This document shows positions 170-57,736 of a stretch of DNA of 64,000 nucleotides, piece by piece. Within the stretch, counting starts at the first letter, position 1. Each line of letters begins with the position of its first letter. Position numbers and translations under genes: made by a program. The DNA is from Lepisosteus oculatus (Eukaryota > Chordata > Actinopteri > Semionotiformes > Lepisosteidae). The DNA lies in assembly GCF_040954835.1 (NCBI RefSeq), contig NC_090703.1, positions 20,287,444 through 20,351,443 of the forward strand, given 5' to 3'. The notes beneath the pieces are model-generated. The model was not told the DNA's origin. It did not search any database and saw only the letters and a program-made list of their open reading frames with translations.

Positions 170-286
170 GATAAGGGCGCAGCCAGCATGTTTCTGTCTG
201 ACCACATGCTGAAGGAGAACTGGACTGGCTACTACAGCCAAGGCTCCATGTTCTTTGATAACTGCAGTCAGCTCATCAAACCACAG
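170..286 (+). CDS. TMEM87A: TMEM87A in-window exon 1
   Basis: 117 nt, phase 0 at both ends, between a cacttcacag acceptor and a gtataa donor. It encodes [11 protein letters not shown] to SQLIKPQ, with a glycosylation-type NWT and the FDNCSQL stretch of the luminal domain (human FQNCSEL). Confidence 0.88.
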
Positions 287-3200
287 GTATAACACTCAAG
301 TTCACTTTGGCAGGATTTGTTTTGGGCAAACCCTTGATATACGTGTCCTTGTTCTGGGTGGTGTGTGGCTGTTGCTTCTGGTCAGACCTTTTGGTGTGTG
401 AACTAACTCCTCCCCCCAACCCCACAAGGGCCTGCCTCCTGTTAAAGCTCAACAAACAGGAAGTGTGAGGGGAAATTATCTACAAATTATCTATCAAATA
501 CACTACTGGACTTGTCAGCATGCTGTGCCAGTATTTGCCATTTGCCATTTCACCCAGCTGAAATCCTCAGTCTGCTGAATGAGCTTTTAATGGATGTTTT
601 TGGAAAAAGTACACATCTAGAAATATATAAAATTGTCAACACATTATATAAAGACAATTTGACAGTTTTACGGTTTGGCATACAGTTGTAATGCCAGGTG
701 TTTTAAAGGGTTTTTATATCACAATTCATTATATAATCTGTTTTTGAATGATCTTATGAAGTATGTGGAGTATAAGAAGACACAAGTTTGCCAATTACCA
801 GAGACTAAATCCTGTGTTTGTTCATGAAGGGAACAGATACAAATACTCGTTTTTGCTAACAGTTCTGGTTCACAGGTTATACCATGTCCATCACTGTGCT
901 GTATGCCAATTTTTCTTGTTATGTTTTCAGATTTACTATAAGGAATTTATCCCATATCAGGCCCTGACCAGCGAGGTAAGTAGGCTACCTAATTTTTACC
1001 TGCAAACCACATCACATTACATGAGAGAATAAAGCTTTCTATATGTAGACTTCTTCTACATATAGAGTTTTTCCATCTTAGGAGGAAGGAAATAACTTTC
1101 AGAAATAATATTGAAATAAGCCCACAAACTTTTTTTAAAAAAGGAAATTTAAAGAGAGCAGAGAGGGAGAGTAGGGTAAGCTCTTTGTGTTTTTCTTTAA
1201 GGAAGGAGATCAGATATTGAAAAGGAGAAAACTGAAATAATCATTAGTATTATACCGAATGCTTATCTCGTGAAGCAACGCCAACAATCGGCAGAGCAAC
1301 AATCATTTGGTGGCTACAAAATGGTCCAGGCAGAAAGAAAAACTGAAAATGAAAACATAGCTTTGTGCTGTCAGTCATTACAAATTACCTCTTGACATGA
1401 TTAACAGGTTTAGCTTGCATAACCGACACAGCCTTATCATCTGCCAATACAGCGCGGCCATACTGCCTGCTAACTCACCAGCATTGCTGAATGTAAGGCA
1501 GTGAAAATGTGCTGTCAGAGTGATGACGTTGGATGGTTGGGTTGGCTGGGGAAAACCAAGGGTCTGGCAGAATGAAATAAATAAAGGACACCTCTCTTCT
1601 CAGACATGGTGATCAGGAAGTGACTGAGTGGTGGGTGTTGCTGTCATGTGAGAAACAAGAATGAAAATGAAGAAAGTAGAAACCCCTCAAAAAACATGTT
1701 AGTAGATAGGAGGCTGCAGATGAGCTCTAATTCCTTGCTGTTATTTGTGTGTAGTTGTTAGTTTGTGTAGAGACAACCATATTAGAACATAATTGAAGTT
1801 ACAAATGTTCAACTTGCCTTTGGTAGGAGGGAGGTCATTGATGGAAGGCTCTTGTCCAGCCTATTCTTGAAAGATCCTAAATATTCCATTACAGTGTCAT
1901 GGCTGTGTAGCTCGTTCCACACACCCACAACCCTTTGTTTGAAGAAACGTCTCCTGATTTCTCTCTTAACTACACTGCCCTTTCATTTCCATTGGTGTTG
2001 TTTGGTTTGGTGTAGGGCTTCTCAGATGGGCTGGAGTCGTTTAAAAAAAACAACTGAAATTTATGTTTTATTAAAGGGAAGTAAACCTCAAAACAAGACC
2101 TTCCCCCAAAGATGGAGCGAGAAACCTGTGAGTATAACCCTCCTGCTGTTTCAGATAGCTGTTGTATTTTCCTCCCCAGTGTAACAGGAACAAGTGGACT
2201 GAATGGTGAAGTAAAATAAAGACATTCAACCTAAAAAGTTATTCCCCTTCCACAGCTCCTTAATATTATAACACCTTAAAAAGTTAAACTGTGCAAATAT
2301 GAAGTATAGAACAATATGATTTTATTCTGAGAACAACCCTTTGGGCCTACCTGGTGTCCTTGTTTTTCCTTAGTGATTGTGCTATGTCAAGTCTTGAAAC
2401 ATACCAGCATGTCTTCATAATCTGTTACCTCCAGTATTAACCTGGTGAATGTCACAGCTTAGTTAGAGCCCGTGTCTGTGGCACAGGGCACAAGGTGTGA
2501 CTAAGAGCACACACCCACTTTTCCCTCCAGGAGGGGTTGCCAGCCCATCATAAGGGCACAGAAAGTGGCAGGAGCCGCGGCAACCCCCGATATGAGCCAA
2601 CGCCCCTTCTGAGAGGGCGGAGCGGTTAGCGAAAAACCGAAAAGAAAACGCCCGAAAAGGGGGAAACGCACAACAAAAAGGAAAGAAGAAAAAGGCGGCA
2701 CCCGGGCTGGACTTACCCTGTTTAACAGGGTCCAGTCTGGGATAGCAGGCAGGCAGCACAAGGCCAAATATAATACTCAGCATGGGAAAACCAGTCAGCC
2801 TGCCCCGGTAGAGATGCATGACGGGACAGGCAAAAAGAAAATAAAAATGCAGAAAAACAGCAGCCTTGCGCTCAGGTACAGTCCCCTCTAGGACTGCCGG
2901 TGGAAGTTCCTCCCCTTCTGGGGATCCCTGCTCGTCCCTCCGGGGAGGCGTTCAGTGTGTCTTTAAAGAGCCCTCACAGCTGTGGCTCGTCCTCGTTCAG
3001 CCAGTGCCGCTGTGGTTATAAAGGCAATGCGCATTGCCACAATGGTTGTTAACAAGTTTCCAGTTATATCTTACATCTTGTTCACTGATGTTAAGCTATT
3101 TTCTTGCTACAGACTCTCAATGCAGTCGCTAAGGCCTGGCAGGACAGACCCTACATGTTCATTGTGAAGATTGTGACCATTAGGCATGATGACAACAAGA

Positions 3201-6200
3201 GCACCCAGCAGGCCTATGATGATTCCACTGGGGAGTTGACCAGTAAGAACATGCATCCCGGGATTGTAATATCATGGAATCTCCTATATGAAATCATGAT
3301 GTTGTCACGGAAGTAAGATCCCTCACAGTGACATCTTGATAAGGCATATACACATCAGAAACGCAGAAAAAGATTTGAAAGCATTGTAAAAGGAAAGTTA
3401 AATGAAATATGTATTTTAACTAACTCTAAGATGAAAGTGGTGAATTCCTGTGAACTGCAGGGACTCTGGCTCTTGGTGTTTTGAGTCTTTCAAACGAAAC
3501 CTCCCAAACGGAACATGGAAATGGCAGAACCACAAGCTTTCTGACGCTCTTTTTCTTTTTCCTTCCTTTGTTGGTTTTGCTGTGGCGTGCAGCTGTGCTG
3601 ATGTGTTTTTTCCCCTCTCCCCCCCAGTGACTGTGGAGATGAAGGGGCCCCGCGAGTACTCCTCCCCAGCTGATTGGCCCCTCATGATCGTGAGTCTGCC
3701 AGTGTTTCGGATCACCGTGCGAGGAGGGCAGCGGGGTGTATTAATGTCAGTGTGGGGGCAACTGTTGCCAAAACGTCCCCACAAAAATGGCAGCTCCTGA
3801 TACTGTGGGGCGTTTCATTTGAGTAGACTTTTGAAAAAGTAAAGGAAAATTAAAATGTGCGTAAGTAGGAAGTCCCCACAGATATGGGAAAACCAGGGGT
3901 GTATGTACTGTATGAGAGAGAGACAGGCTAAATGCGCTTTTCTCTTGACCAAACCACTGGTTTACTTCCTTGATGAAAATCAGTGATTTGTTTTTATGCT
4001 TCCTAGTTGTGGTTCACTATTTCTGTTTGTCCAGGCAGCCACCAGTGTAAATTCTGCCTTGCGTTGAGAACCGGCGTCGTAAATGCTTAACTGAAATGCC
4101 CTCTTGGTTGTGCCCTGTCAACAGTTCTTCATGGTGATGTGCATCGTTTACGTGCTCTTTGGGGCGCTGTGGCTCCTTTGGTGCATCTGCTACTGGAAAG
4201 ACCTGCTACGCATCCAGTTCTGGATTGGGGCCGTCATCCTGCTGGGAATGCTGGAGAAGGCTGTGTTCTATTCCGAGTACCAGAACATCCGCTATAAGGG
4301 CGAATACAGTAAGGCTGGTCCTCCATGCAGTGCCCTAATGTTCAGAACTGGTACACGGGAAAACATTGTGAGCAAGTGCAATGCATGAGCCCTCTCTTTA
4401 ATATGTGCAGCAAAATGCTGGATTTCTGTTCCTCAATGGTTGTGAAACTGGAACATTTATGACCCAGTTTAATTTAATGCAAATAATTTCTGGTAAATCA
4501 GGTATTTTAGGAAAAATTTAGCTAAAAGATGTGATAATGTCTTATGGTAACACCTCTCTAAAATATGTAAAAAGAACTAGTTGACTTTTCCACATTTGTT
4601 TGAAGATGTATTGACCTTCATTTGGGACCTTGAGTTTTAATTTTTTAGAAATAAGCAGTAGTTCTCATATTGCGATAAGAAGGTGTGTCACATTAGTCCT
4701 GTCAATTGTACTTTGAACCTCTACATCATCCCCGCCACACAGTTTTTGCTATATTGATTTCTTCTTCAGACACCTGCAAGACGGTGTCTGATTTCAGAGA
4801 TCTGCCGCAGGTCATGTGGCCCAACAGGCAGGGCGATCGTGGCTCAAAAGAATAACCAAACCATAGCTGCTTCTTTGGAAAGCGTCTGTTCAAAAACAAA
4901 AGATGAGACTTTATACCTGGCCAATTATTTTTTTTTATGAACTGCTTTTATGTTTGGAAACATTACATGCATCGTTTTGTCTCCTGGGAAAAAAAACAGG
5001 TCAGTTCTGGAATGCTTTGTTAAATGTTAAATTGGTACCCCTGCAAATTTCCTAATTGACATTTGTAAGAGATCTTTTTGGAAAATACTTGTAGCAAAAT
5101 AGTTTAGAAAGCCAAGTGATTAGTACTGGGAACCGCCCACTGGCATGGAGAGGAGAAGGAACATACAGAGCTCTGTTCTCTGTCTGGGATACCAGTGTCC
5201 TGTGCCGCTGTCTCTCTTCAGTCCAGGGCGCAGTGATCTTCGCAGAGCTCCTCTCGGCCCTGAAGCGATCCCTGGCACGCATCCTCGTCCTCATCGTCAG
5301 CCTTGGCTATGGCATTGTGAAGTGAGTTCCTTTTATAACCAGTGTGCGGCCGGTCGGTGCTGTGGTCCCCGAGAGTCTGCGGGAACTCCAGACTGGCACA
5401 AACCATTTTATTCCTAGTCCCTTGCTTTCTTTGTGCTGCTGTGAAGTATGGTCTACAGGAATTGTAGTATTTGTAAATTTGTCAATTGCCCATAAGTGAG
5501 CTTCAGAATCGGGAAAAGGACAGGAGAACACAGACTCTTAAATGCCTTGAACTGATTGATTTGTTAGTGGTGTTTAAAGCTCCTCTGGGATGTGTGCGCT
5601 ACGAGCTTTAGAAGGAACCAGGTTGTTGGTCCTGTGCTTGCCTTGTTCCCATGTGTACCTGCTGTTGTGTTCTTCCCTCAGGCCCAGGCTAGGCACCACA
5701 GTTCACAGACTGGCAGCTGTGGGGCTGCTGTATTTGCTCTTCTCCTCTGTGGAAGGCGTCCTCAGGGTTACTGGGGTGAGTGCCAGTCCATCTTATGGTG
5801 GCATTGTGGGCACAGAGTGGAACCGCGATCTCGGAAACTGAAGTCCGTCACTTTACGTTCATGACTCAGCAGTGCTCAACCCTGGTCACGGTAGTGCCAT
5901 AATCCTGCAGGTGTTCTAGGACACTCTGAAATCATCACTTTAAGACTTTCATTCTGATCAGTTTAGAAGGTTCATTGGTGAAGTCCAATAAGAAAAGGGC
6001 AGCTGTGGTCCTTGAGAGATCCAGGATTATTTAATGATCTCTAAGCTATTTGACTGAGTGAGCAGTAAAAGTCTGCTTAAGTACTCAAAACAAAACTGTT
6101 CCAGCTTTTTTTGTAATTGATAAAATGAGGGGAAGCTATAAAATCTCCTGAAATGTTGGGCTCAATCCTACTGTACACAATTACAGACATCGGTAATGAC

Positions 6201-9200
6201 CCTGTCCATTTCCAGCAATATTTTTCACTGATTTAGAAAGTATATAATGCTTTTAAACTTTATAAGTTTATGATGGTCTATCCCCAGAGTTGATTAAACA
6301 CATTTTTATCCTAGCAAATGGTAGTGAATTAATTATGCCACAGGGTGTGAATACTTATTTGTAGAATGCTACGGAGTTCCAGAAATAAGTATGAACACCA
6401 TGTGAATGGTCAATCCTGACTGAACTGTCGGCCTCTGTTTTTGAGTGAAGAGCTGATCTGGTTTGAGGGTGAAACAGGCAATCGCTGCCAAGTCCTGTGT
6501 GCGACGTAATGTGTCCATTCAATTTTAGAATTATAGCAGTATAACAAAGTGAATGCCAGTGGGCACCGAAGGTCATCTAATCTCTCTTCTTCTCCAGGGT
6601 TTCTATGGGACTGTGGCACTGGTGGCCAACCTCAGCCTTTCCTTGATTGACTCCTGTGTGATGTGGTGGATATCCTTTCCTTATACCCAGGGTCTTACAA
6701 ATACAGTCCATGTACAGTAGTTAGAAGCCGGTGGTCAGAGTTACTCATCCATTCACTTACATAAAGTCAAGGAGAGTAAAGGAGTGCCCATTTCTAGACC
6801 CCGAGGGTTAGGCCTCTCAGTTAATAAGGTTAAAGAGGTACAACAAAGGTAATTACCTCGATTTCCTCATTAAGAGCCACTTTGGAACAAAAAGTACATG
6901 AGGTGGAATAACTAGCAAACTAGGGATTAAAAGTTTACTTTAGGTTTTTAGCATTAAAAAGACAATTATATTGCAGCTGATTATTCAGATTGAATAAAAA
7001 TAAATTAAATAAACAGTGACATCCCTAAGCAGATAGGATATTTTGGACATTTAGATTTTTTTTCTGAAGCCTATCTTTAGATAGGTATATTTGGAGGTAT
7101 AACCAGTGTTATAACTGTCCCATTTCTCACATGACAGTAATGTGATTTACCATAGCTAATGTTATTAGGATTGCTAACAGCTAGTATAAGCATATACCCA
7201 TCCATCCAACTGCTTCTTCCAATTCAGGGTTTTGGGGGAGCCAGAGCCTAATCATGGCAAGCCATGGGTACAAGGTGGGGTATGTCTGTCCATCACAGGG
7301 CAGACACACAAACACACACACTCACACTTAGGAACAATTTTCCCAGTAGTCAGTTAAGCTACCGGTATGTCTTTGGACTGTGGGAGGAAACCGGAGCATC
7401 TGGAGGTAACCCAGGCAAACACGGAGCGAACATACAAACTCCATGCAGATAGCACCCTGGTAATCGAACCCAGGGCCCCAGTGCTGCGAGACAGCAATGC
7501 CAACCAATATGCCCCCAGGCCACCCTGGTATAAGCTGCTGCAAAAATATACTGCATAGGAATGTACAGTGAAAGCAAGGTAAATTTATGCAAATGTAAAT
7601 TTACCCTTGAGTTAAGGTGTGCCATAATAGTGTAGATCTACCATGGCCTAGTTCAGGTCCAGAAACCATTGATCTGCTGATTATGGTTTTAACCAATGTC
7701 GTCCATCATTGTTCCTGAACTGCAGCTCACGTCTTCATTAGCCTCTCCCAGACCATCCGTCTCCTGAAGTTGCGCAAGAACGTGGTGAAGCTCGCCCTGT
7801 ACCGGCACTTCACCAACACCCTCATATTCTCAGTCCTGGGTGAGAGGCCACTGCTGACCCTACAGCCAGGGGGTGGGGGTGGACTGTCTGGATGTGGGCT
7901 TCCGACTGTCATCTCCTCATGCGCTCGTGCGGCTAGCATCAACATGGCCCGCTTCATCATGAAGCTCTACAGAGCCTGCGGTTTAGCCATGTGGCCTTGT
8001 GAGCTGTATGGTTTTTGATAGAATTACTAAGGCAGTGATTACTAATGCTGAGGTCTGTTAACTTGGTTTAAGCCCATATTCTCATACATGAAGCAGGGCA
8101 GCCAGCTTATCAGTGCTGCAGGACTTCTTTTGGATTGCAGTGAGGAATTGATCTGTGCTCAGAGTGGGGCTGCCTGATTCAGTAGCAGTAGGAGAGATTC
8201 CACAATCTAATGATTCAAGAAGAGTAATGGGATAATCAAGACTTTTATCTACAAGGAAACCAAGATCTTAAATTGCCTGTAGCTGATTTCTTGATTAGTC
8301 TCTTGTGGCATCGGAGAATTAACTGATGTTAGTTAGCCAAGTGGGTTTTGATTCCTCCTGTAAATTTTGAAGTGCCATAATCATGATGCGAACCTTGATT
8401 CAGTACTATCTGTGTTCTGTTGGATAAGCATGTGGAGTCTACTTTGCCTAGAAATAAGATTTTCAATCCCCAAAGTAACAGAGCAAACTTGCCTCTTTGT
8501 GTCTTTGGAAAGTGCTCATACACTATTGCTAGTCCCAGAACATCATCAATTATATCTCTACCTAAAAAATAATCTTTTTCTATTTTTGTATTTATGTTCT
8601 CAGCTTCTATGATTTTCATCATTTGGACAACAAAAGTATTTAAGATGGCGGACTGTCAGACGGTGAGTTTGTTTTCAGCTCCATTGAGCCTGTAATATGT
8701 TGTAATAGCTCAAGAAGAAAAAAAAAAGAAGAGGCTCCACAGCCGAAACGTTGAGTTTTCTTTCTTCTCTTTTCAGCATGGAATAAACCTATTACTTGTT
8801 TCTTTGCAGTCTGTACAGTATATGTTTTATTGTAATACCATAAATGTTATAAATAAACCATGGGCAAGGATATTAAAGTGCCCTTTCATTAGGTTCTTGG
8901 CTTAAGGGTTTTAAATGTTAGTGTCATAGATAATAGCTTGACACCATTGGCTCCTTGGCCAAGCACACACATTACTTTTTAATCTAAAAAAGCTCTCATA
9001 AAAAAATAATTTATTTTGTAATAACTGTCTTAGTTATTAGTAAAATAGTAGTAAAATGTGCAGTTGTTGATCGATCACAGTGGGCTGGTCCAGAGCTCTC
9101 TCATATTAAACTGAGCAGTGTTAGTTTTAATACGAACACTGAGTTGACACAACTGTCTGGAGCCAGTGTACGTACAAACACACATGCAACATGGATGGCC

Positions 9201-12200
9201 TGATGGAGAGAGTCATGCATATTTGTGCTGCATAGCTCTGTGTTGACAGTCAGTCAGTTACACTCTTTTTAGAGGGCTGGTTATTTGAAGTCGGTTCTGT
9301 AGAAAACTGTGAGAAAACCCCACCCTTGCTATCTGAACTGTGTTTGCAGGGCTGGAGGGATTTGTGGGTGGATGATGCCTTCTGGCGGCTGCTGTTCTCT
9401 ACCATCCTTTTGGTCATCATGGTTCTGCTCAGACCTTCTGTCAACAGCCAGAGGTAACTGAGCTCTCTGGGGGCCTGACAGGCTCTTCTGAAGTTTACTC
9501 TGCTAAATATGCACTCGTTTCTTACCTTGCTCTCGCCGTTTTCTATCCCAATTTTGCTGTTTAACTACACGTTGAAAATGCTTTGTAAGAACAATTTCAG
9601 ATTTCCCCTACATATGCATACTTGTGGCTAATCATATCAATGATTAGAGCAGAGTGGAAGCACTGCACCCACAAGAAAGCATAATGAAAACACTGTAAAT
9701 TAGACTAATGTGCAGAGAAAGCATAATAAAGGTTCACAGTGTTCACAAAATCACCGGAGTGAAGCTTGACGCTGAATTTCCAGCTCAAAATATTCTGAAA
9801 CTATTACACAATAACAGAGGGTTTCAAATACATTTTTGGGCAGTATTCTTGAGACACAGCTGGATGTTGATCTTGAGTTGAAAGATACAGTATTAATCTG
9901 TAAAGACAGCATTAAGCTTTACCTCAGATAAGAATTGGTCCTTAATGCTAGTGCACTGTCAAAATGTAATACTGATCAGCTGTTTGCTATTTTTGACTGT
10001 GTGAACGGACATCTTATACTGATTTGCTCACTAGTGAGATTTCAACTCAGGTTTTCTAGTGCTCTGCTGATCAGTACATTATGTAACAGTACACACACAT
10101 GTATTAAAAGTAGATTTTCACCCCAGCAAAGTGGCGTCTTTGTCTCACTCTGTACCAATTTTATAAATTATAATTTATCTTTCAGATTAAGGGCAAGTCA
10201 CACTGGATTGTATCTGAATAAAGAATGATAAAGGGCCCAAGCACTAGCACTGGAACTAGAAATTTAGGAATATATCATAATCAAGAAAGCCTTAATTAAA
10301 CGTTAATGTATGATAAATATTGATAAATTGAAAGAAAAGAAAAATCTCTTACAGACAAAACTTCAGTGCAACAGATGAGTAAGGACTGGAGTTCCCCAAG
10401 CTTTTGAATAATGCAGTAAGGCAGAGGTAACAAGTTGCATTGCTGAAAGGCCAGTGGTTTGGCAGCTGGTTGAGATCTCTTCAACAGCTGCACCTGCTGA
10501 CCCGGGAAAAGCTATTTAATTGGTCCAGCAGGTTTAGCCAGTTCATTAAGAACTCGGAAACGCCGTCCCACCAGGATCAGGACTGGACACCCATGCAGTA
10601 CACTTTCCAGGAATAAAGAATAAACATACTTGTTGCCTTTGAAAAGCCTGTGAAGCAGCTCAGCCCCCTCTTGTTCCATACAGGTTTTCCTACTCCCCAC
10701 TGATTGATGAGGATGAGGAGGATGAAGCCAAAGAACCCATGCTGAACGAAGCATTTGGTAAGGCTGAATGATCATGGGGTAACAGACGTGTATAACAGCC
10801 AACATTCCTTGACTGTTTTTTGAGCAAATCCCAGAGCAATTGTAGGCAACTTGATAAGCTAGTACTATGTAGAGTGGATGAATGTGAAGGGCACATGATC
10901 AGTCTATTCACACTGCTCTTGTTTCTCTTTGCCAAGTGGAGAAGTGTCTTGTCACTGGTGTCATTATGAGACCTCGTACAAAGTTAGTCCTGTGTTCGTC
11001 TTCACGAGGTTCTCCCTGAATTTGAGTTGCCATGAGCAACTGTGTCATTGCTTGTAAAGCTTTATGGTAGTAGTAAGGAAAGCAAACAGTTTGAACAGAT
11101 TCAACCTCAAAGCACTACACTGAAAACAGTGACCATTGGATTCCATCCCTGGTACTGGGCTGCCACTTTCTCTACTGGTTTTTGTTCCAATTGAGCTCTA
11201 TCTCCTTAGAGCCAGTTTGATGACTTCATTGATATGCTTGCAGGTTTAGACTTGGGAAGCCTGTTTCTGCACTGTCATTAGTTGAAAGAACTACGTCAAG
11301 AATACCAATTCCAACAACATAAGAATACAGAACTTTAAATAGCCTCTAATCTGCTTGATTATACTTATTTCAGACTGGACATTTCCTAATAGGTGATCAA
11401 TTGATGATAAGCAGAATAAATGATGAACAGAGTAAGGTAGGAAATGGAGCAGAAATATTAAGTCCCAAGGTAATAGAAATGGTTAATAAAATAAATTCCA
11501 CAGGATACATGTCTGGCAATTCCCTGTAGCTTGTTACCTCAAATTCAGACATAGGAGTGTTTTGAGAAGTTTGTTTTTGATTAACGAATTTTAAACTAAA
11601 AGCAAATCCAAAAATATAAAATCCATAAAGGAGATTCAGATTGATATCGAGTAGGAAATGAGTAAAAGAATGAACCATCAGGGAGAAAAGTATACATTTA
11701 CCAGTATTCAAAATATAGAAGAGGGTGAGTAGACTGTGTCCATCCCATTGTTTGTCTTTTTCATAGAGGGAATGAAGATGAGAACAACAAAAACTGAAAG
11801 CAATGGCACCCCAAAAACTTCAAACAAAGAGGTGAGCATAGTCCGGCAGTCAGGTCTGTCTGCACTGCACTCTGCAGTGTGTTCTGGGAGTATTGCAATT
11901 AGCTTAACTACAGTAGCTGATTAATAGCATATAAAATCATCTTCTAACAGTCGAAGGAGCTAGATAGGCTGAGTGGATGCCTCTCACCTTTAATTATTCT
12001 TAAGTTCTTATGGTTCTGTCTGTGGTGCCCTCTGCAGAGTGTGAGCACACCAAGAGAGAGCGATTCTGTCTGTACAGTAGAGTTGCCACATTACTGCAGG
12101 TTCCTGAGCATTGGTACTCCATTAAACTTGCATCATTCTTTGATCTCTTATATATTTAATTCATATTCAGAACACTTATAAATGTTAAACATTTCATCAA

Positions 12201-15200
12201 CCACCAAATGAAAAAGTATCTGAAGACTTTGTGGAGTGAGGAAAAATATTATGTCATTCTATAAATCCAGTATTTCTTGCTAATCTCTGTTGTTTCTGTG
12301 AAATGATATGTTTTTGATTCCCTCAGGATGAAGACCTAAAGTGGGTGGAAGAGAATATTCCCACGACAGTTGCAGATGTGTGAGTACAGCTGAAATGCAG
12401 AGATCAAGGAAGCTTTTTAAAAATATATATATATATTCCAGGCAGGATCAACTATTAGTCAACATTCAGCAAACAATAGTAGAAGACAGTGGTAATGTAT
12501 ACTATAACTTTAAAGATCTTAGTCTTTAGTTTAGCCCCAAAATACAGTAGCTTTGCTCCAAATCAGTTTAGAAGACAAATCCTGCTTGTGCACATCATGA
12601 GGTTATGAATGATTTACAGATGTGCACATTAGTGTTGTGATTCACATCTGCACACTGTGGACATCCCTTCTTACGAGGGGAATAAGGAGGAGGCTTGGAC
12701 TACCATGTGCGTCTTACTCTGTCCCAGGGCTCACAGTGGATAGGGCACACAATAGAATAAGAATCTGATAATTTCACTGGATTTTGCAAGCAGTGTTTCC
12801 TGCCCCATTCCTGATCATTTTTCTGTACTTTATACATACGTTTGTTTTTCTATCTTTGTCGGGACTTCCCATTGAGTCACTACTCTCTACTGTGCCAAAA
12901 TGAAAATCTGGACCGGGTGAAAGTAGACTTTTCTTGTCAGCAACATCTGGCTTGTTGACGGTCTCTACGTTAATACAACAGTTCTGTTTCCATGTGATCA
13001 ATGTCAGTCTCATCTCCACCTTTCACTCCCATGTCCAGTATTGCAATCGGTAATTTATTACGTATCTTCTTGTATCTTAAGAAAGAGGTAGATTTAGGCA
13101 AAGTGAGACTCAACAATGTGCACTCCTTTCCACACTTTACTAAGCTTAAAGTTTTCATTACCTTCTAAGGCCAACACTTTTCCTGTTTCCTTAATAAAGA
13201 CACTAGTTCATCACTGGTTAATCTTTCACAAAAGCAGGTACTGTACCTGATTGTACAGTCTGGATGTGTGGGACAACTCAGAATAAAACACAATACACTA
13301 TGGCACCACACAGGGTCATCAAAGCACTGGGTGATCCCTTTATTCCAGACATCACTGGATCCTGCCTGAACTATTACATTAACTGACCATGGCAGGGTTT
13401 CTCACGTTTCTGCAAAGTAGCTGAGACCATCTTGGTGGGCCTTACTGGGTTTCTTAGGCTTGCTGTGTGACACTCAATCCTGGAACCTGCCAGACACCTG
13501 TGATTTTGCAGGGACATCAAGCTGGAGACATACATCTCTTCCAGTGGGGTCTAATTCTCCTTCTAGCCAGCAGCTATATCACCCTGCAACTCACAATTGA
13601 CAACTCACCGAAGCTCAGCGGGTGTGAGCCTGGCAAGTACCTGGCTGGGAGACCTCCTGGGAAAGCTAAGGTGGCTGCTGGAAGAGCGGTTAGTGGGACC
13701 GGTAGGGAGCCCTCACCCTGCAATCTTTGTGGGTCCTAATGCACCAGTATAGTGAAGTTGGGTGTTTCTCAAAAAGAGTAGGGGTGTCACCCCGGTCTCC
13801 TGGCCAAATTTTTACCAATCATGGCTTCCTAATAATCCCCATCTGTGGATGTGCTTAATCACTCTGTTCTCCTCATTGATATCTGGCTGCCGTTGCATCA
13901 TCCAGATGGGGGTTACACATTGGTGGTGGTGGAGGGGAGTCCCTATTACCCTTGAAAGACCTTTGAGTGGAATGTCCAGAAATGTGCTATGCAGCAGACG
14001 TGTCAGGAAATATTCATTATATTGCACTGTTGAGGTCACAGTGGTACACTGGCTTTGACAAGTGACTGTGCCGTTGACTTCTCTGTGTAGACAGGGAAAG
14101 CTGAACCCCTGACTCATTAGTCCTACTTGCTACTTTGTATAGTGTTGAATGTCTTTGAATAATAAAAAACCCACTACTGAGTTGTTTGTTAATTTAGCCC
14201 TGAATAAAAGCAGCAACAGTATAGAAGGAACTTCTTGAATCGACAAGATTTAAAGAATGAAAGAGTATCATCCTGTTGTCTTTAGCAGGTGAGGTGTAGA
14301 TTTGGTCTTCAGTGCTGTGTGAATTGAATTTTCTTCCTCTCTGTCTCTCTAGGGCACTCCCAGCCATACTTGATGACGAGGAGGTATGGTCATCACTTTT
14401 TCATCTTAGTCTCATGATCCCAGTCATATTTTACTCATTAAGCCACAGAATTAGCTGTTCAAGACCTGCCCATAACACAAAGCCACTGATGTGTGCATTG
14501 CAGTTTGACTGTTTGTGTGTCTAGCTTGACTTTTGCATATTTGATCGTGTTTTGTGCATTTTCTGACTATGAGCTCTGTGTCTGCATGTAGATCAGATTT
14601 TTCATGTGGCGCCTATTATGCAGTGTATATCTGCTTATTAATCTTTGAACTCTTAAGGAATGTACTTATTGCCAACATATCTGAAGAATATTGACATTTC
14701 TAAATGTGTTGCTTTAACCTGACTAGATTTATAGTTTTATAGATAAATAGTTCATCTTGAGAGAGTAACTAATATATTTTCTGAATACTTTAAACAATAT
14801 TTTTGGAAGTGTCCCTATTCTCCTATACAGTTCCTAGTTCTGAAGTTTTTCTTGTTTTTCTATTTTTCTATTGGTCTCATAAATATTTAAGTTTGAAGTT
14901 GAAACATGTTGCCAAACATTTTATTTAAGAGCACTCTACATGAAAAAGAAAGAAATAGAATGTTTTCGTGTTAGAATAAATATGACAACTTTCTTGAGAA
15001 AAATAATTTTATGGTGGTGCTCTGATAGAAATATCAGAAAACAAATGTTGCAGGGGCATTCAAACAGTTTTGAACAAAAGTATATACAGTAAAATCAGGA
15101 TCATTTTTGGACTTCTGAGCGCAATCACATTTCACCTCAATGCAGTGCCAATTTGCCCTTGAAATGGGGTGTTCTCCAATAATTAAACCCCTCTGATTGC

Positions 15201-16142
15201 TCCCTTTACCATTTGCCAGTAGAAAACTTCAGTAAATTGTCTTTAAACTGTGTACCACACAATACAGGCTTCAGGTCCCATAATAATAAGGGGAGTAAAT
15301 CTGAGTTGTAGGCTGGATAATTCAGCTCTGTAATCAAATCATGATCTGTGATCAGACAAATTGCAATACAGCAGCAAAATGACATGTGTTTCTTCATTAA
15401 CTGCTTTATGCAGGGTGACCAGCAAAACAGAGCACTATTGAGCAGTTATTTTCAGACTTGTCTTGCATGAAATTCATGGGTCAAGATGTTTATACTGTAA
15501 ATAGTTTCAACAGTCCCCATTTTTCCCCCAATTTTTGTGACCTTAATTAAGCAATCGATCACTATCTTACTTTACATAACATATTGTAACTGAACTAGTT
15601 GCATTTGAAGTTTGTATGGACCTTAGGGTCATCTTCAATTTGATTCTTTACTATGTACTGTATAAAAGTCTTTATTTATTGTGCATCTGTGAAATAATTT
15701 GAAAACTCCATCATTCATTGGCTCTGAAACAACAGAACAGCATTAGTTATCAACAGAAATCTTTATTTTCAATACTTCATAAGAACTGCACAACACTCAC
15801 ACTCTAACTATGTAGTCACCAAGTCTTTTTGTGCCTTGCATATCGCAAATTGAGTCCTGTGCTACAGTGTACAGTTCAAGGTTTTTCTGTTCACAAGCTT
15901 TGCAATACAGTTCATCTTCTGATTTACTGCAGTTTGGAGACTTTCAGGTTATTTAAATCTCCAAAAAAAACAACGATTAATAATCCTTGGCCTACAGAGG
16001 TGATATTATAATTACAGCATACAACAGTTAATTTTACCACATTGTATTTCTATGCCATTCGGAGAATATATGGTCCTTAACAAGCCCTCTCTTTTGCCAG
16101 GAGATTTTGACAGCCACGCTGGAGAGGTCGAAGATGGAGTAG
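170..16142 (+). CDS. TMEM87A: TMEM87A, Golgi seven-transmembrane GOST-family protein (3' 16 coding exons; 5' end outside window)
   Basis: Joining the 16 exons listed separately gives one open frame of 446 codons plus stop, with compatible phases at every junction. Family members are about 555 residues, so about 110 N-terminal residues are missing upstream. The visible part holds the end of the luminal GOLD-like domain (to WPLMI), then seven hydrophobic segments: [91 protein letters not shown] and [14 protein letters not shown]. An acidic cytosolic tail follows and ends in ERSKME. TMEM87 proteins sit in the Golgi and are linked to endosome-to-TGN traffic, and to cation conductance or mechanosensing (literature). 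The paralogue TMEM87B is similar; I chose A because VPS39 lies directly downstream, as in human, and because of the tail. One intron is AT-AC type. The introns carry SINEs and other repeats listed separately. Confidence 0.93.
931..975 (+). CDS. TMEM87A: TMEM87A in-window exon 2
   Basis: 45 nt, phase 0-0 ([15 protein letters not shown]), acceptor ttttcag, donor gtaagt. It is shorter than the equivalent human segment, which has a longer luminal loop, and it could be skipped without a frameshift. Confidence 0.78.
1845..2010 (+). repeat. Interspersed repeat, family X (unclassified), copy 1
   Basis: Shares a core with the reverse complement of 41712-42066 (tcatggctg...gttccac...cccacaacc...gaagaaacg). 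From memory this family is abundant in non-teleost ray-finned fish; I cannot name it. Confidence 0.65.
2455..2985. repeat. GC/CpG-rich block of unknown origin in a TMEM87A intron
   Basis: Its composition is unlike the AT-rich intron around it: frequent CpG, purine-rich runs on + (cgaaaagaaaacgcccgaaa) and an internal stem, CCCTGTTTAACAGGG, at 2717-2731. It is probably an inserted mobile element, but I recognise no family and no coding motif. The 88-118 aa minus-strand frames look like composition artefacts. Confidence 0.4.
3113..3242 (+). CDS. TMEM87A: TMEM87A in-window exon 3
   Basis: 130 nt, starts in phase 0 and leaves one base over. It encodes the luminal [11 protein letters not shown] stretch, matching the conserved TWQDAPYIFIV of the human protein, then a divergent polar loop. 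Donor gtaaga. Confidence 0.9.
3628..3689 (+). CDS. TMEM87A: TMEM87A in-window exon 4
   Basis: 62 nt. It completes an ATG codon (Met) with the previous exon and encodes [20 protein letters not shown], the end of the luminal domain just before TM1. The acceptor follows a strong poly-C/T tract. Confidence 0.92.
4125..4308 (+). CDS. TMEM87A: TMEM87A in-window exon 5 (TM1-TM2)
   Basis: 184 nt encoding TM1 ([19 protein letters not shown]), the conserved RDLL-like loop ([14 protein letters not shown]) and TM2, ending YKGEY. The TM1-TM2 block is nearly identical to mammalian TMEM87. Donor gtaagg. Confidence 0.96.
5222..5321 (+). CDS. TMEM87A: TMEM87A in-window exon 6 (TM3)
   Basis: 100 nt, phase 1 in and phase 2 out. 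It encodes [20 protein letters not shown] and the following [12 protein letters not shown], a highly conserved family block. Donor gtgagt. Confidence 0.95.
5682..5775 (+). CDS. TMEM87A: TMEM87A in-window exon 7 (TM4)
   Basis: 94 nt encoding [20 protein letters not shown] to EGVLRVTG. It ends in phase 0 with a consensus gtgagt donor. Confidence 0.95.
5870..6035 (+). repeat. Short interspersed repeat of the 'ccctggtcctgg' type
   Basis: Begins cagcagtgctcaaccctggt and continues with tcctgcaggtgttct, a head common in fish interspersed repeats. Related heads or tails occur at 10545, 20208, 25320 and 48595. Confidence 0.4.
6598..6669 (+). CDS. TMEM87A: TMEM87A in-window exon 8 (TM5, first part)
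   Basis: 72 nt, phase 0-0, encoding [20 protein letters not shown] then VMWW. It is followed not by GT but by atatcctttcc, the consensus 5' splice site of an AT-AC U12-type intron. No GT nearby would keep the conserved WW-[IV]-FISL continuity. Confidence 0.92.
6670..7730 (+). other. AT-AC U12-type (minor spliceosome) intron of TMEM87A
   Basis: A 1061-nt intron beginning ATATCCTTT and ending in CAC. A U12 branch-site-like TTCCTGAAC (consensus TTCCTTRAC) lies at 7712-7720, about 11 nt before the 3' splice site, as minor introns require. Splicing here restores VMWW-VFISLSQ (human WWIFISLTQ). The intron contains a minus-strand SINE. Confidence 0.88.
7198..7520 (-). mobile_element. tRNA-type SINE with L2-like tail (reverse), inside the U12 intron
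   Basis: Reverse complement reads from a tRNA-like head (ttggcattgctgtctcgcag...ccctgggttcgatta) through the conserved body (gtttcctcccacagtccaaagacat) to the ttggatggatg end. Nine related copies occur in the window. Confidence 0.85.
7731..7839 (+). CDS. TMEM87A: TMEM87A in-window exon 9 (TM5-TM6)
   Basis: 109 nt after an AC acceptor. It encodes [20 protein letters not shown] and [16 protein letters not shown], a conserved cytosolic loop and the start of TM6. Leaves one base; donor gtgaga. Confidence 0.93.
8604..8662 (+). CDS. TMEM87A: TMEM87A in-window exon 10 (TM6 end)
   Basis: 59 nt encoding [19 protein letters not shown], matching human SIVFIIWTTMKF. Donor gtgagt. The coding bases at 8642-8651 (aagatggcgg) also form a YY1-like motif, probably by chance. 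Confidence 0.92.
8712..8830 (+). repeat. Short repeat tail resembling Penelope-like element ends
   Basis: gctccacagccgaaacgttg followed by a T/C-rich run and ggaataaacctattacttg. From memory this matches a widespread fish repeat tail associated with Penelope-like elements; identification is weak. Confidence 0.35.
9350..9453 (+). CDS. TMEM87A: TMEM87A in-window exon 11 (TM7)
   Basis: 104 nt encoding [29 protein letters not shown] and SVNSQ. WRxLWVDDAxWRLLFS is a family hallmark. Phase 2 out. Confidence 0.95.
10545..10612 (-). repeat. Short interspersed repeat fragment ('ccaccaggatcaggactgg' core)
   Basis: The core matches 48615-48640 and, in reverse sense, the heads at 5870 and 20208. Fragment only. 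Confidence 0.35.
10684..10757 (+). CDS. TMEM87A: TMEM87A in-window exon 12 (acidic tail)
   Basis: 74 nt encoding [20 protein letters not shown] then NEAF, the acidic cytosolic tail (human FSPLSEEEEEDEQKEPML). Phase 1 out; donor gtaagg. Confidence 0.93.
11767..11831 (+). CDS. TMEM87A: TMEM87A in-window exon 13
   Basis: 65 nt encoding [20 protein letters not shown] then E, a basic and polar tail segment. Acceptor tttttcatag, donor gtgagc. Confidence 0.9.
12327..12379 (+). CDS. TMEM87A: TMEM87A in-window exon 14
   Basis: 53 nt encoding [18 protein letters not shown], the conserved DDLKWVEEN motif of the tail. Phase 2 out with gtgagt. Confidence 0.93.
13567..13995 (+). mobile_element. SINE3-type element (5S rRNA-derived), internally deleted
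   Basis: The head resembles 5S rRNA (agctatatcaccctgc...gaagctcagcgggtgtgagcctgg...gtacctggctgggagacc). The body matches the copy at 37311, but bases corresponding to about 37500-37588 are missing. It ends in the ctttgagtggaatgtccaga tail. Confidence 0.85.
14353..14383 (+). CDS. TMEM87A: TMEM87A in-window exon 15 (microexon-sized)
   Basis: 31 nt encoding [10 protein letters not shown] after completing Val. Acceptor ctctctag, donor gtatgg. It matches the conserved VALPALLD motif. Confidence 0.9.
16101..16142 (+). CDS. TMEM87A: TMEM87A last coding exon (coding part)
   Basis: 42 nt to TAG, encoding [13 protein letters not shown]. The ERSKME end, as I recall it, is the TMEM87A C-terminus. Acceptor cttttgccag at 16091-16100. 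The exon continues as 3' UTR. Confidence 0.87.
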   Translation, partial: EILTATLERSKME

Positions 16143-27200: not shown

Positions 27201-30200
27201 AGTGTGTTCAAAATGTCATGTACCGCAGCTCTTTGACAAATACGATATCTGTTTATGTGCAAAGATAGACGGATGTCTTTTTTTTAATGCTAACTTTTGT
27301 CGGCTATGAAATGCTAGCTGGGAAAGATAAATGGGATTGTAGCTCTTTAAAGTTGAGCATCTGTTTCTTTACTGTGTTTCAGGGAGATTTTGGGGCCCCT
27401 GATGTTCCCAAGTCCATGGCTTGGTGTGAGAACTCCATCTGTGTGGGGTTCAAGCGTGATTACTACCTGATTCGGGTAAGCTGGCTACAAGTCAGGAAAC
27501 GGGGCGGCACTTTGGGACCTGAATTCGCACTGTGGTGGTTCCTCCCTCATTACTTAACAAAATGTCTACATAGAACCACACCTCTAGTGACCACACAAAT
27601 ACCAGTACAAACGAATCTGGTTAAAGAAACACGACCAACCTTTAATGTCGACGTGATCTTCAGAACCATTAAACCTTAGCAGCTGTCATTTGCTTTCATA
27701 TCCTTTTAAGGTTGTCATTACCGTTCTACTGAACCACACAGAATAAGGGTGCTTTTATAGGGGTCATTCAACAGAAGTAATGCAGAGATCACGTCTCCCA
27801 GTCTCTGATCTTGGGCCTCCACTCTCATTGTCGTGTCTTTTGGGGTTCTCTTGTCTTTTCATGGTTCGGGTTTGTGTTCTGTGCACAGTAATGTATTGAA
27901 AATTGATCATTTTGAGTTGAAGCATAAGGTAAGCAATGCTGTTTGGTTCACTGAGCAGAAGTGTAACTAAACAGAGAAGTGTGCAAACTGTCAGGTGTTA
28001 CTTGTATAGTCTCACAAAGCTGAGCTGTAAAGTAAATTGGAAGCCCTGGTCTTGACAGTAGCTTGAATTGTTCTCCCTCACATCACATACTAGGTTTGCT
28101 GTAGTAGTTGCTGTAGTTTGCTGTGATATCTGAATTTTGAATTATTCACTAAACAGCTTAATTCCAGTTTTAGTACAATTAATATTGGAAAAGTCATGAA
28201 ACCATGCTGCAGGTTTTGATATTAATGACTCTCCCAGTTTTGCGAGTTATTTCCCACTGAGTGGCTGTGTCTTCTCCTCAGATGGATGGACGAGGGTCTT
28301 TCAAGGAGCTCTTCCCCACAGGCAAGCAGCTGGAGCCCCTGGTTGCCCCGCTGGCTGATGGGAAGGTGGCAGTGGGACAGGATGACTTGACGGTGGTTCT
28401 CAACGAAGAGGGGGTTTGTACCCAGAAGTGTGCCCTCAACTGGACTGATATCCCTATTGCAATGGGTGAGGTCCTTAATCCCGAATAAAGCTTTGGCTGC
28501 ATTGATCAGATTCATGTAGCAGTCTGTCGGTACACAATTCAGAGCTTTGTTCTCTTAGACATGCCTCCTGCTCACCATTCCTTATTTATAATGAACTGGA
28601 GAGCTCAGGCTGTTTCATTTTTTTGAAGAAAATAGAGAAAGGAAATTAAGAACGTGGAGCTACAGTATAACATCAGATCGTTCCAATTTCCTGTGCTCAG
28701 TAAATAAAAAAGCTGCTTTGACCAGAGATTTAGAGAGGAAGTGACTGTCGACCCAACTGAAATTGGCGGTACATACCCCTGGCAAAGTTTTAGAAAGATT
28801 GGACAAACATGTTACAGCTCTGCATGTTCTGCAAAAAAAACCCTTGGTTTGTTTTTTCTTCTGTTCAACAGTCAAAATGAACGTTTTTTAAACAATTCAA
28901 ATTGATTCTTAGAATTTGGGTTTCTTCTTTTTGCTACAGTTACCAAAAGTGTAATTAATTTTCATTGAGGCATTTCGGGAACCATTTCTTTCAGTCTCTT
29001 CAAGAGTATAATTGTCGATATGGTCTGAAAATGTGGAATTTAGATGGTTTCTGACCCATATTGTTTTTACTTTGCTGTCAGAAAATTATTTTGTGGTACA
29101 ATTCATGCCGTTTCCTGCAAGCCTTCATTTCCAACAGGAAAGTTGGCTGGTCATTGATCACGGAGGCCCACCACAGACTTTTAATCCTTGTCCAGTCGTT
29201 GGATTTGAAAGAGGCAGAGATTGATACTGTTGACTGGATGAGTTTTTAGAAATTAACTATAAATTAAGAAAATCAAGCAGAGACATGGCTCGTTTTGTAA
29301 CTCACTAATTAACATGACTGTGTCAGTTGCCATGAATGCTGTACCACCTCATTAGAGGTCACAGTGCAACCAAGGGTGTACAGATATGGGTGCCAGCCAG
29401 TGTTGTGATTAGTGATGTAATGAAGGTGGCATCTTTCAAATATTTCCTGATTTAAGTTAAAAATCCACAGAAAGGTTTTTTGCCACTCTCTGGAGTTACC
29501 CAATGTTTTTCAAAAGTCAGTGTGGATTACTTTGTATTTCTTTCACAACAATCTAAAACCCTTTCGTGCCAAGGTAGTAACTGTAGAACCACTGATCTCA
29601 GCTATAAATGTTGTCGTTTCTAATTCATCTGTCCAGATTCTGTGTTCAGTCCAAATCAGATTAGAACTTTTCCAGAAAAATGGGATGCCTAGAATTTGGG
29701 GAAATTGGGGTTTTTTCACCACTCTTTGCTTCCTGGTGCAAGTGTCCAAGGTCCTGTTGGACAGTCTTGGAGTGCAGGCAGTGCAGTGACCCTTTCTTCC
29801 TTTACCCCTGACCCAGAGCACCAGCCACCCTACATCATCGCTGTGCTGCCCCGCTATGTGGAGATCCGCACCTTTGAGCCACGCCTTCTGGTCCAGAGTG
29901 TGGAGCTGCAGAGGCCCAGATTCATCTCCTCGGCCGGGTAAGAGGGAGGGGGCCTGCTGGGGCTGATGGCGAGGGGGCCGAACCCCCAGATAACTCTGAC
30001 CTTGCGGTGTGCAGAATTTAGACTGGGGAAAAACGCGTTCTCTCTTCCACCTCCTGGTTGGTGTATTAATGATCTAACACATCAACAGAGTTGAGTTTGA
30101 AGGTGTAGTAATATACACGTTAATAGCACAGCAAGTAGTGTATTTGGGATGATGGAGTCACGAGGGCATTGCAAAGAAGATAGCCGCACAAAATGTCCGT

Positions 30201-33200
30201 ACTTGCCTTAAAAATTGTTGATTCATCCCAGGCTGATGAGACGTCTGGTTTAAGCAGGAGGAACAAAATTGGCAGTATCCAGTCAAACTGGTTGCACATA
30301 CATGTACTTACAATAACACTAGCTCCCATTACTGTAAGTAATTGTAAGTCTTTCAATGGTGTATAATGATAAGAATCGCCACACCTCACTGTCTTATCCT
30401 GGTCAGGACTGTTTGTGAACGTTGTCTGTGTTCCTGTCTTCTGGCTTCAGGAGTTTAAATGGGCACAAGTGAGTGTTTGTTTAGCTGGGCCCAAACAAGT
30501 GGGAGGGAGGTTGTTTAAATCTGAGTGTCCTGTGTGATTTACTGGGGGAGAATAGTGGTCTGAGATCGTTGGAGGAGTTGCTGAGGGAAACTTTTGGCTG
30601 GGATGAGCACACCCATAAACTACTCTTAGTCATTTAGCTGTAGGATTTGAGACTTGTGGTGTTTTTTTTTTCGCAATACCTTTGAGTTTGTCAGTCAGCC
30701 TCTCTGCAGTCTGCCATCCATCCTGGGGAGAGTAATGCAGGTCAGTGATGTTGGCAGAGGGGAGCTTTACGTAACATGTGGGTAATGCCAAGCTATTGTA
30801 GGTATGTGGTTGTAATTTTGTGTGCTTTGTGAGTTGAAGCAGTCTTCTGTAACATGTTTGTCTGTCACCTTCCTGGACATTTTGTTTGTTTTCTCCTGCA
30901 GGCCCAACATTGTGTACGTTGCCAGTAACCATTTTGTTTGGCGGCTGGTCCCTGTTTCCATAGCGACGCAGATCCGACAGCTCCTTCAGGATAAGCAGTT
31001 TGAGTTGGCCCTTCAGCTGGCGGTGAGCAGCCACTCGCATCTGTTTGGTCTAGAGGGAGTTATAACCAACACAGGAAATTGGTTAAGGGTGTTTAAATTT
31101 TCTGTTTCCATAATGTTGCACTAAGCTGTGGTGGGTACAGTGTATCCCATTTCTCACCATTACAGTAAGCATTACTGTTTTTACACATCATGCCTGCATA
31201 TTTTCAGTTGCTGTATTTTAACCAGTTCCAGCTGGACGTGTACTACTCACTCTACAGAACAGTTCGACAGAAGGTAGCTTTTAAACTTGAGAAAAATGTG
31301 TTTTTTACTTTATTCAGAATGCTTATCTTTCTGAACTTTTCATTGAATTAAGAAATTTACACATTTTACTTTTCATGTTCCATGCAGCTCTGCCATGAGT
31401 AGACATAGAACTTTACATTGAGGTTTAATCTCCCTGCCTGTCATACAAATTTCTCTGTACTCTATTATTCTTTCTGTTTTCTTAATACTACGCCGAAACT
31501 CCTGAGGTCCATAAATACTGCAACCAGAATTTCTAAACGCCAGAAATTCTTTCTGAATGTGCTACAGTGAAGATCTGAGGTCTGAGACATGCAACTTTTT
31601 TCATTTAGAACTATATCACCTCAACTTTAGATCTGTAGAATTTTCTCCTTGGACTTATTAACAGTGCAGTGCAATGAGACTCCTGTCTCCTCAGAGACAT
31701 TTTTGTTAAAATGAAATCTTAGATGGTCAAACTAGATCACTGGGGTCATAGTGCCAGTCCCATCATTCCATTCTCTGGTTCAGTGGCAGTACGTTTTTTT
31801 TTTCCATCAGCTATGCCATTTCTCTTCCAGAAGATGAAGGATGACTCGGATGGTGATAAGAAGCAGCAGATCCATCACATCCAGAACCTTTATGCCTTCA
31901 ACCTCTTCTGTCAGAAGCGCTTTGACGATTCCATGCAAGTTTTTGCCAAGCTGGGCACAGGTCAGTGAGGATTAGCAGGTAACAACCTTTCTGCTCTTCA
32001 CAGTGATGAAAACCACAGCAGAGTGAGACACTGCCACAGGTTTGACATGTCTGAATATATTTCTTGAAATCACTGCTGGAGGAGGGTAGTCAGTAGATGG
32101 GAGGTCATTGCTTGGCTGTTTAAGAAAACCTACTGCAGCTGGATCAGTAAACAGGCAGAATTGGAAGGGTGTATTACAGTAAGAGCAGAGACCATCACTG
32201 CATAAAGGAAAACCCTGGAAGGGCTTGTAGAAGTAGAATTGTGGGAACAAAAAAGTGGGATGAATAATGCATCTATGTATGAAACAGGTAATACTCAGCA
32301 CTTTAGAACAGAACATTTTGAACATTTTAGAGAGTTGGAGGATTACAATACAATAAACCAGAAGCACAATTAAATGGCAAATACAATGTGCTAGATCCCT
32401 GATCTTCACAACAGTCAGTGTGAAGTACTGCTCCTTTGGTGGTGATCATGTGTTGTATTGCAAGCATCACTAAAATGAAGAGATTGGTTTTGAAGAGACA
32501 TTCTAAGATGGTCAGAGGTCCTGGCATTATTTGAGTGTGTAGAATAGCGTGGTTGCAGAGTATTATATTCTGCACGCTCAATCAATGTACATCACAGGTT
32601 TTGAAAGGTGCTACAAGTGTCAATCAGGCTGAAATTCAGAGTGAGATGCAGGCACAACAGAGTTTTTTTCATTGCAAAGTAAGCAGAATTTCCCTGTCGT
32701 CTCCAGATCCCACCCACGTAATCGGGCTGTACCCCGACCTGCTGCCCTCTGACTACCGCCGGCAGCTGCACTACCCCAACCCCCTGCCCAACCTGTCTGG
32801 CGCTGAGCTGGAGAAGGCACACCTGGCTCTGATTGACTACCTGACCCAGGTAACAGCTCCCACGATGCCCAGCTCGAGTCCCAGCATGCGGCTCAGAATA
32901 AATCAGCATATCGATCATTTTAAGTAGTTGTTAAACATGTCTTGGCTTTATTAAACTTTATGCTAATTTATATTAGTGCAATTGTATCAACTACACATTT
33001 TTAGAAACCAATATAAAATACTGCACAATGAAAGCCATGAGAGAAGAGCACTTGGTCTTATTTGCTGTATAATGTTCCAGTTTAAGTGGAAGTACCATTC
33101 AGCTTTAATCGTTTTAAAACATGAAATTCAGAGAGAACAGTAATAAAAGAGAGTGTACTTTAGGCTCTGCACTGATATTCAGATTATCCTACTGTGGTTC

Positions 33201-57254: not shown

Positions 57255-57532
57255 AATTAGTGGGTGGCAGCACTGGTAAGAAATACTTTGTGTTTGAAAC
57301 ATCTTGGAAACTGGAATATATCGGCGCTAGGACCTGATAAATACCTCGTGTGCTTCTGTGAACATCGGGAATCTCGGCTCCAACCAACCAGCTTGCGGGC
57401 AGTTAGTTATCAGAGGCACACAGACATCTCTGGGCTGTTTGCTTTCCCGAAATCTGGACCCTGCCCACCCAGCTGCTGTCCGCTGCAAACCCGAAACTCA
57501 CTGAGCCGGCGAGCCCTCCATATGGGCTCACA
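57255..57532 (+). promoter_or_regulatory. GALNT16: GALNT16 upstream region / 5' UTR
   Basis: More GC-rich than the flanks, without a clear TATA box. It includes an upstream ATG at 57522 whose 15-codon frame overlaps the main start. Transcription start not determinable by eye. Confidence 0.4.
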
Positions 57533-57736
57533 ATGCGAAGGATTAGGGCTAACGCCATCGCAATCCTAACTGTCGCATGGATCTTAGGCACCTTTTATTA
57601 CCTGTGGCAGGATAACAAACCCCAGACGTCCCCGTCTTCAGCATCCCAGTCGAGGTCTACCGCCACCAGGAACCATGGACAGAGACACCCGGGGCGGCTA
57701 GACATCCACCGGGAGGACAGGACCATCCCGCTCATC
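57533..57736 (+). CDS. GALNT16: GALNT16, polypeptide N-acetylgalactosaminyltransferase 16, first coding exon
   Basis: 68 codons from ATG to a consensus gtgagt donor. MRRIRANAIAILTVAWILG then TFYYLWQDN is almost identical to my recollection of human GALNT16 (MRKIRANAIAILTVAWILG). The exon ends REDRTIPLI, again as in the family. It encodes a short cytosolic tail, the type II signal-anchor (about residues 8-25) and the Ser/Thr-rich luminal stem. The enzyme transfers GalNAc from UDP-GalNAc to Ser/Thr in the Golgi; the catalytic GT-A and ricin-type lectin domains must lie beyond 64000. The stem (residues 29-58) is divergent. Start choice: A at -3 and match to family length. Confidence 0.95.

Follow-up and report, generated by a model that had tools for sequence, protein, structure and literature searches.

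The TMEM87A gene and its surroundings

The window analyzed here is a 64,000-nt stretch of DNA located on contig C8 of a 1.2-Gb vertebrate genome that we regard as fish-like. Its first quarter contains, on the forward strand, a TMEM87 gene modelled at 170..16142 (the 5' exons lie beyond the window), in which 17 hand-joined exons form a reading frame that stays open until the stop codon 16140-16142. The encoded protein contains the Pfam domains TMEM87A-B_GOLD and GOST_TM, in agreement with the GOLD domain and GOST-type seven-TM region of TMEM87 proteins, and matches human TMEM87A with an E value of 1.1e-157 (PDB chain residues 104-511), which supports the gene name proposed in a first-pass annotation that a model had made from the letters alone.

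Among the best 20 matches of a TMEM87 protein search, we found the window gene, another TMEM87 gene on each of two other contigs of the same genome (C3 and C17), and a weak TMEM87-like match at C12:34447391-34447513 (E 1.64, query residues 140-180). Humans have two TMEM87 members according to the abstract of PMC9711517. When the window, C3, C17, and human TMEM87A proteins were compared by four-point sums over 187 aligned residues, the arrangement joining the window gene with human TMEM87A and C3 with C17 had the smallest sum (81; 88 and 93 for the alternatives), which places the window gene, rather than its paralogues, next to human TMEM87A, although C3 by itself has slightly more identities to human TMEM87A over the 187 residues (150) than the window gene (148). 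Genomic context was also considered. A Pfam Vps39_1 domain was detected in joined exon pieces downstream of the window gene, and human TMEM87A is, as we assume, a neighbor of VPS39. The kinase upstream of the C17 gene is closest to Mer (376 bits; UFO, 318 and TYRO3, 284), and human TMEM87B presumably adjoins MERTK. We therefore call the window gene TMEM87A and the C17 gene TMEM87B; the C3 gene is a further TMEM87 copy. The VPS39-like exon pieces extend over about 27300-34800 (+ strand) and, apart from the Vps39_1 domain, were named by eye; a search of the joined pieces against PDB gave no match. The C3 gene (C3:1825001-1834000) adjoins a large ORF that was named AKAP-like by eye and in which no Pfam family was detected.

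A U12-type AT-AC intron inside TM5

Within the window gene, a 72-nt exon (6598..6669, + strand), which encodes 24 residues and the first half of TM5, ends with ATGTGGTGG and is followed by a phase 0 intron of 1061 nt (6670..7730, + strand). This intron opens with ATATCCTTT (6670..6678, + strand), a sequence that conforms to the U12-type 5' splice site pattern [A/G]TATCCTTT, and its last letters are CTCAC, with the AC acceptor at 7729..7730 (+ strand). Near the acceptor, a U12-type branch site, TTCCTGAAC (7712..7720, + strand), agrees with TTCCTTRAC at 8/9 positions, and its last A is 11 nt from the intron end. The AT and AC termini are those of the AT-AC subtype. The following exon (7731..7839, + strand) begins with VFISLSQT and encodes the second half of TM5, and the junction between the two exons aligns at W377|I378 of human TMEM87A. 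An AT-AC intron with exactly these boundaries and ends had been proposed beforehand, together with a consensus U12 donor, a branch site about 11 nt from the acceptor, a W-W|V-F junction within TM5, and GT-AG ends for the remaining reconstructed introns; all of this holds, with 15 of the 16 modelled TMEM87A introns being GT-AG and the intron at 6670-7730 the one AT-AC case. Using approximate scoring matrices, the donor of this intron scored +15.2, and the other TMEM87A donors scored between -13.7 and -30.2 (n = 14).

Taken singly, these motifs are not rare. The 9-mer ATATCCTTT is not rare because 1.0 occurrence is expected from base composition on both strands of the window and two are present (6670 and 27698), and with the branch matrix, 12 or more other window sites score above TTCCTGAAC. 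The second exact ATATCCTTT, on the + strand at 27698 amid the VPS39-like pieces, was read as a chance occurrence, considering that about one is expected. What goes beyond chance is the combination of these signals at a boundary that is required by homology and its recurrence in the two paralogues. The sequence signals place the intron at 6670-7730 in the AT-AC subtype of minor (U12-type) introns, and no difference was found between its donor, branch site, and termini and those of U12-type AT-AC introns in general as given in the available excerpts of PMC3584512 and PMC7367187.

Considering that 35 GT/GC-AG pairs (donors within 6610-6799 and acceptors within 7600-7830) would also keep the frame open, it might be argued that the major spliceosome in reality uses one of the GT-AG or GC-AG pairs close by and that the AT-AC match is coincidental. 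However, the donors of these pairs agree with the consensus at 2-5 of nine positions, versus 6-8 of nine for the real donors (n = 13 scored), none of the 35 pairs yields a protein that aligns with human TMEM87A across TM5, and the AT-AC signals are found at the same place in two paralogues. All 35 pairs were rejected on the basis of their weak donors and non-homologous products, and we regard this explanation as so improbable that it can practically be neglected. In the window gene and both paralogues, a gene finder that only considers GT-AG introns would put the TM5 junction in the wrong place.

Tandem alternative exons in the paralogues and a single exon in TMEM87A

U12 introns associated with mutually exclusive exons 11 and 11a have already been published for mammalian TMEM87A and TMEM87B, according to the available excerpts of PMC6717393 and PMC8329584. 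Mouse Tmem87b has two 72-bp exons, 11 and 11a, that are used in a mutually exclusive manner, with 11a being predominant in cortex (Olthof et al. 2019, PMC6717393, excerpt), and mutually exclusive use of the two exons around the minor intron is stated for both TMEM87A and TMEM87B in the corresponding part of a review (PMC8329584). A further literature match on this topic is an editorial (PMC10565666), and TMEM87A is listed, with the exon unspecified, among cassette exons bearing a CNS tag in the accessible part of PMC2941758. The minor intron between exons 11 and 12 of mammalian Tmem87b/Tmem87a belongs to the same gene family and is of the U12 type, as is that of the window gene, and the upstream exon is of the same size (72 bp for both 11 and 11a of mouse Tmem87b and 72 nt in the window). 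For the mammalian introns, the excerpts give the U12 class; AT-AC ends are seen here in the sequences of the window, C3, and C17 genes.

The first-pass annotation overlooked that, in the C3 and C17 genes, this intron accompanies a pair of alternative exons, of which a single one was found in the window gene. Two alternative exons were found in the C3 gene (72 nt, DQDGTSRLLCDIVLAVTDSCIVWW; 69 nt, AQDDLVLLAAIPLAVLDSALCWW) and two in the C17 gene (72 nt, GRDNAPALISEIVLNMFNTGFVWF; 72 nt, 24 residues). By sequence, both genes display the same layout as mammalian Tmem87a/b, with two exons, each flanked by a U2-type 3' splice site and a U12 donor, that share one U12 acceptor, unlike the window gene, in which one exon was found. 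All five exon copies of the three paralogues (two in C3, two in C17, and one in the window) are preceded by AG and have retained the ATATCC donor, and all three genes have an AC acceptor together with a U12 branch site lying 11 nt from the intron end. The U12-based exon pair probably predates the duplication of the three paralogues.

Human, C3, and C17 11a peptides matched each other's 11a exons with E values of 6e-10 to 8e-9 when 9-kb loci were searched by tblastn. In the 64-kb window, which is approximately seven times larger than these control loci, the C3 and C17 11a peptides revealed the known exon only (tblastn, E 0.01), with E values of 3e-3 and 4e-4, a level comparable to that of 11-versus-11a matches within C3 (about 2e-4), and the human 11a peptide had no match below E 0.017. 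Apart from the known donor, the pattern [AG]TATC[CT] is absent from the + strand of introns 5776-6597 and 6671-7730, and no hidden 11a was found in introns 5776-6597 and 6670-7730 by using the U12-donor pattern, three-frame reading, and tblastn. No copy of the alternative exon other than that at 6598-6669 was found in the window gene. Because 11a, the type to which the human canonical exon belongs, was undetected although the control peptides work, the window gene has probably lost the minor-intron exon switch. Another explanation is that the animal does carry an exon 11a that is missing from the assembly or is too diverged for detection. Only a single assembly was used, and an interspersed repeat of about 315 nt (7199..7513; eight more alignments in the window and four in three other loci) lies within the minor intron, where assembly errors can arise. 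In addition, a strongly diverged 11a could escape the search because C17_11 itself was matched by no other exon peptide at E 0.01. However, the window is free of N letters, the flanking introns contain no second U12 donor pattern, and the positive controls for 11a succeeded, and we consider this explanation very unlikely. The loss, in the window gene, of one alternative exon that its sister genes retain seems to be new, and no report of exon 11a loss in fish was present among the literature matches listed.

We also compared the surviving exon with the exons of its relatives. The window exon is most similar to C3_11 (9/22 identities; BLOSUM62 score 61), followed by C17_11a (9/22; 52), C3_11a (7/22; 46), the human canonical exon (6/22; 38), and C17_11 (4/22; 25). 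The three 11a exons have 15-16 of 22 residues in common among themselves, and the two "11" exons (C3_11 and C17_11) have 7 of 22. Considering that C3_11 scores higher with the 11a exons (BLOSUM62 45-50) than with C17_11 (35), "11" is a class defined by position more than by sequence. At six positions chosen after looking at the alignment (358, 359, 366, 370, 374, and 375, human numbering), all three 11a exons are identical and all three other exons, including that of the window, are different. These comparisons favor, although not firmly, the possibility that the surviving window exon is of type "11". Alternatively, it might be a strongly diverged former 11a, exon 11 being the one that was lost, as its greater similarity to C17_11a than to C17_11 could suggest. 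On the other side, its best match is C3_11 (E 4.5e-6; 5.6e-5 and 5.1e-4 for 11a exons), it departs from the 11a exons at the six positions mentioned above, and its identity to them is limited to 6-9 of 22 residues, compared with 73-79% over the remainder of the protein. We therefore find an 11a origin unlikely and retain type "11" as the favored assignment.

Lipid-contacting residues of TM5 and a proposed evolution of the exon switch

The human canonical exon, which is of the 11a type, corresponds to residues 355-377. According to the available excerpt of PMC11239671, residues D371, C375, W376, I378, and F379 of TM5 contact phosphatidylethanolamine in the cavity and side opening, and the numbering used here reproduces the letters of these residues. 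In the window exon, D371 and W376 are kept, with Met at position 375 and Ser at position 366; both C3_11 and C17_11 have Val at 375 and 366. As lipid-contact residues of TM5 differ between exons, the choice of exon or the loss of a single exon would change the lipid-facing half of TM5, which may in turn influence lipid handling. In the accessible part of the eLife structure paper (PMC9711517), isoform, splice, exon, and TM5 are not mentioned. With exon choice mapped to named lipid-contacting residues, the function of the switch can be put to the test.

We propose, with considerable confidence, a model in which an ancestral pair of exons 11 and 11a preceded a U12-type AT-AC intron, 11a was lost from the window gene, and the intron is now constitutive. 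In the established pathway of minor splicing, whose signals are what is seen here, U11 and next U6atac would pair with ATATCCTTT and U12 with TTCCTGAAC, and the minor spliceosome would join codons W-W to V-F inside TM5. The ancestral TMEM87 gene might have possessed tandem exons 11 and 11a before the minor intron, each having a U2-type 3' splice site ahead and a U12 AT donor behind, with one common U12 AC acceptor. Exons 11 and 11a would be mutually exclusive because a U12 donor would not readily be joined to the U2-type 3' splice site that precedes the second exon; U12- and U2-type sites are described as generally incompatible in the available excerpt of PMC3584512. The C3 and C17 genes would have retained both exons, whereas in the window gene 11a would have disappeared and the exon most like the upstream "11" would have been kept, with the AT-AC intron probably being constitutive. 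As a result of 11a loss, TM5 of the window protein would be fixed with Met in place of human C375 and Ser in place of human P366. Thus, one exon may be lost while the class of the intron stays unchanged. Exons 6a/6b of the JNK genes MAPK8/9 (PMC8329584 and PMC3584512, excerpts) belong to unrelated genes and differ from the window gene, in which no second exon was found and hence no switch is expected.

A broader scenario, the chances of which appear evenly balanced to us, is that the exon pair on tandem AT-AC U12 donors preceded the vertebrate TMEM87 duplication and that the switch was then partitioned between the copies: the TMEM87A copy would have lost the human-canonical exon and would permanently contain the other TM5 half, with lipid contact altered at the cavity's side opening, and its two sisters would keep the switch. 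If this is true, the distribution of 11a among fishes would represent a natural experiment on the purpose of a minor-intron switch.

Several minor features were observed elsewhere in the window. Two 5S rRNA-like sequences are present on the + strand, one at 13566-13683 (47.2 bits) and the other at 37310-37428 (44.3 bits), which we take to be, perhaps, the heads of 5S-derived SINEs. An ORF containing MRRIRANAIAILTVAWILGTFYYLWQDN (57407-57787, + strand) resembles by eye what we assume to be the start of a GALNT-family enzyme.
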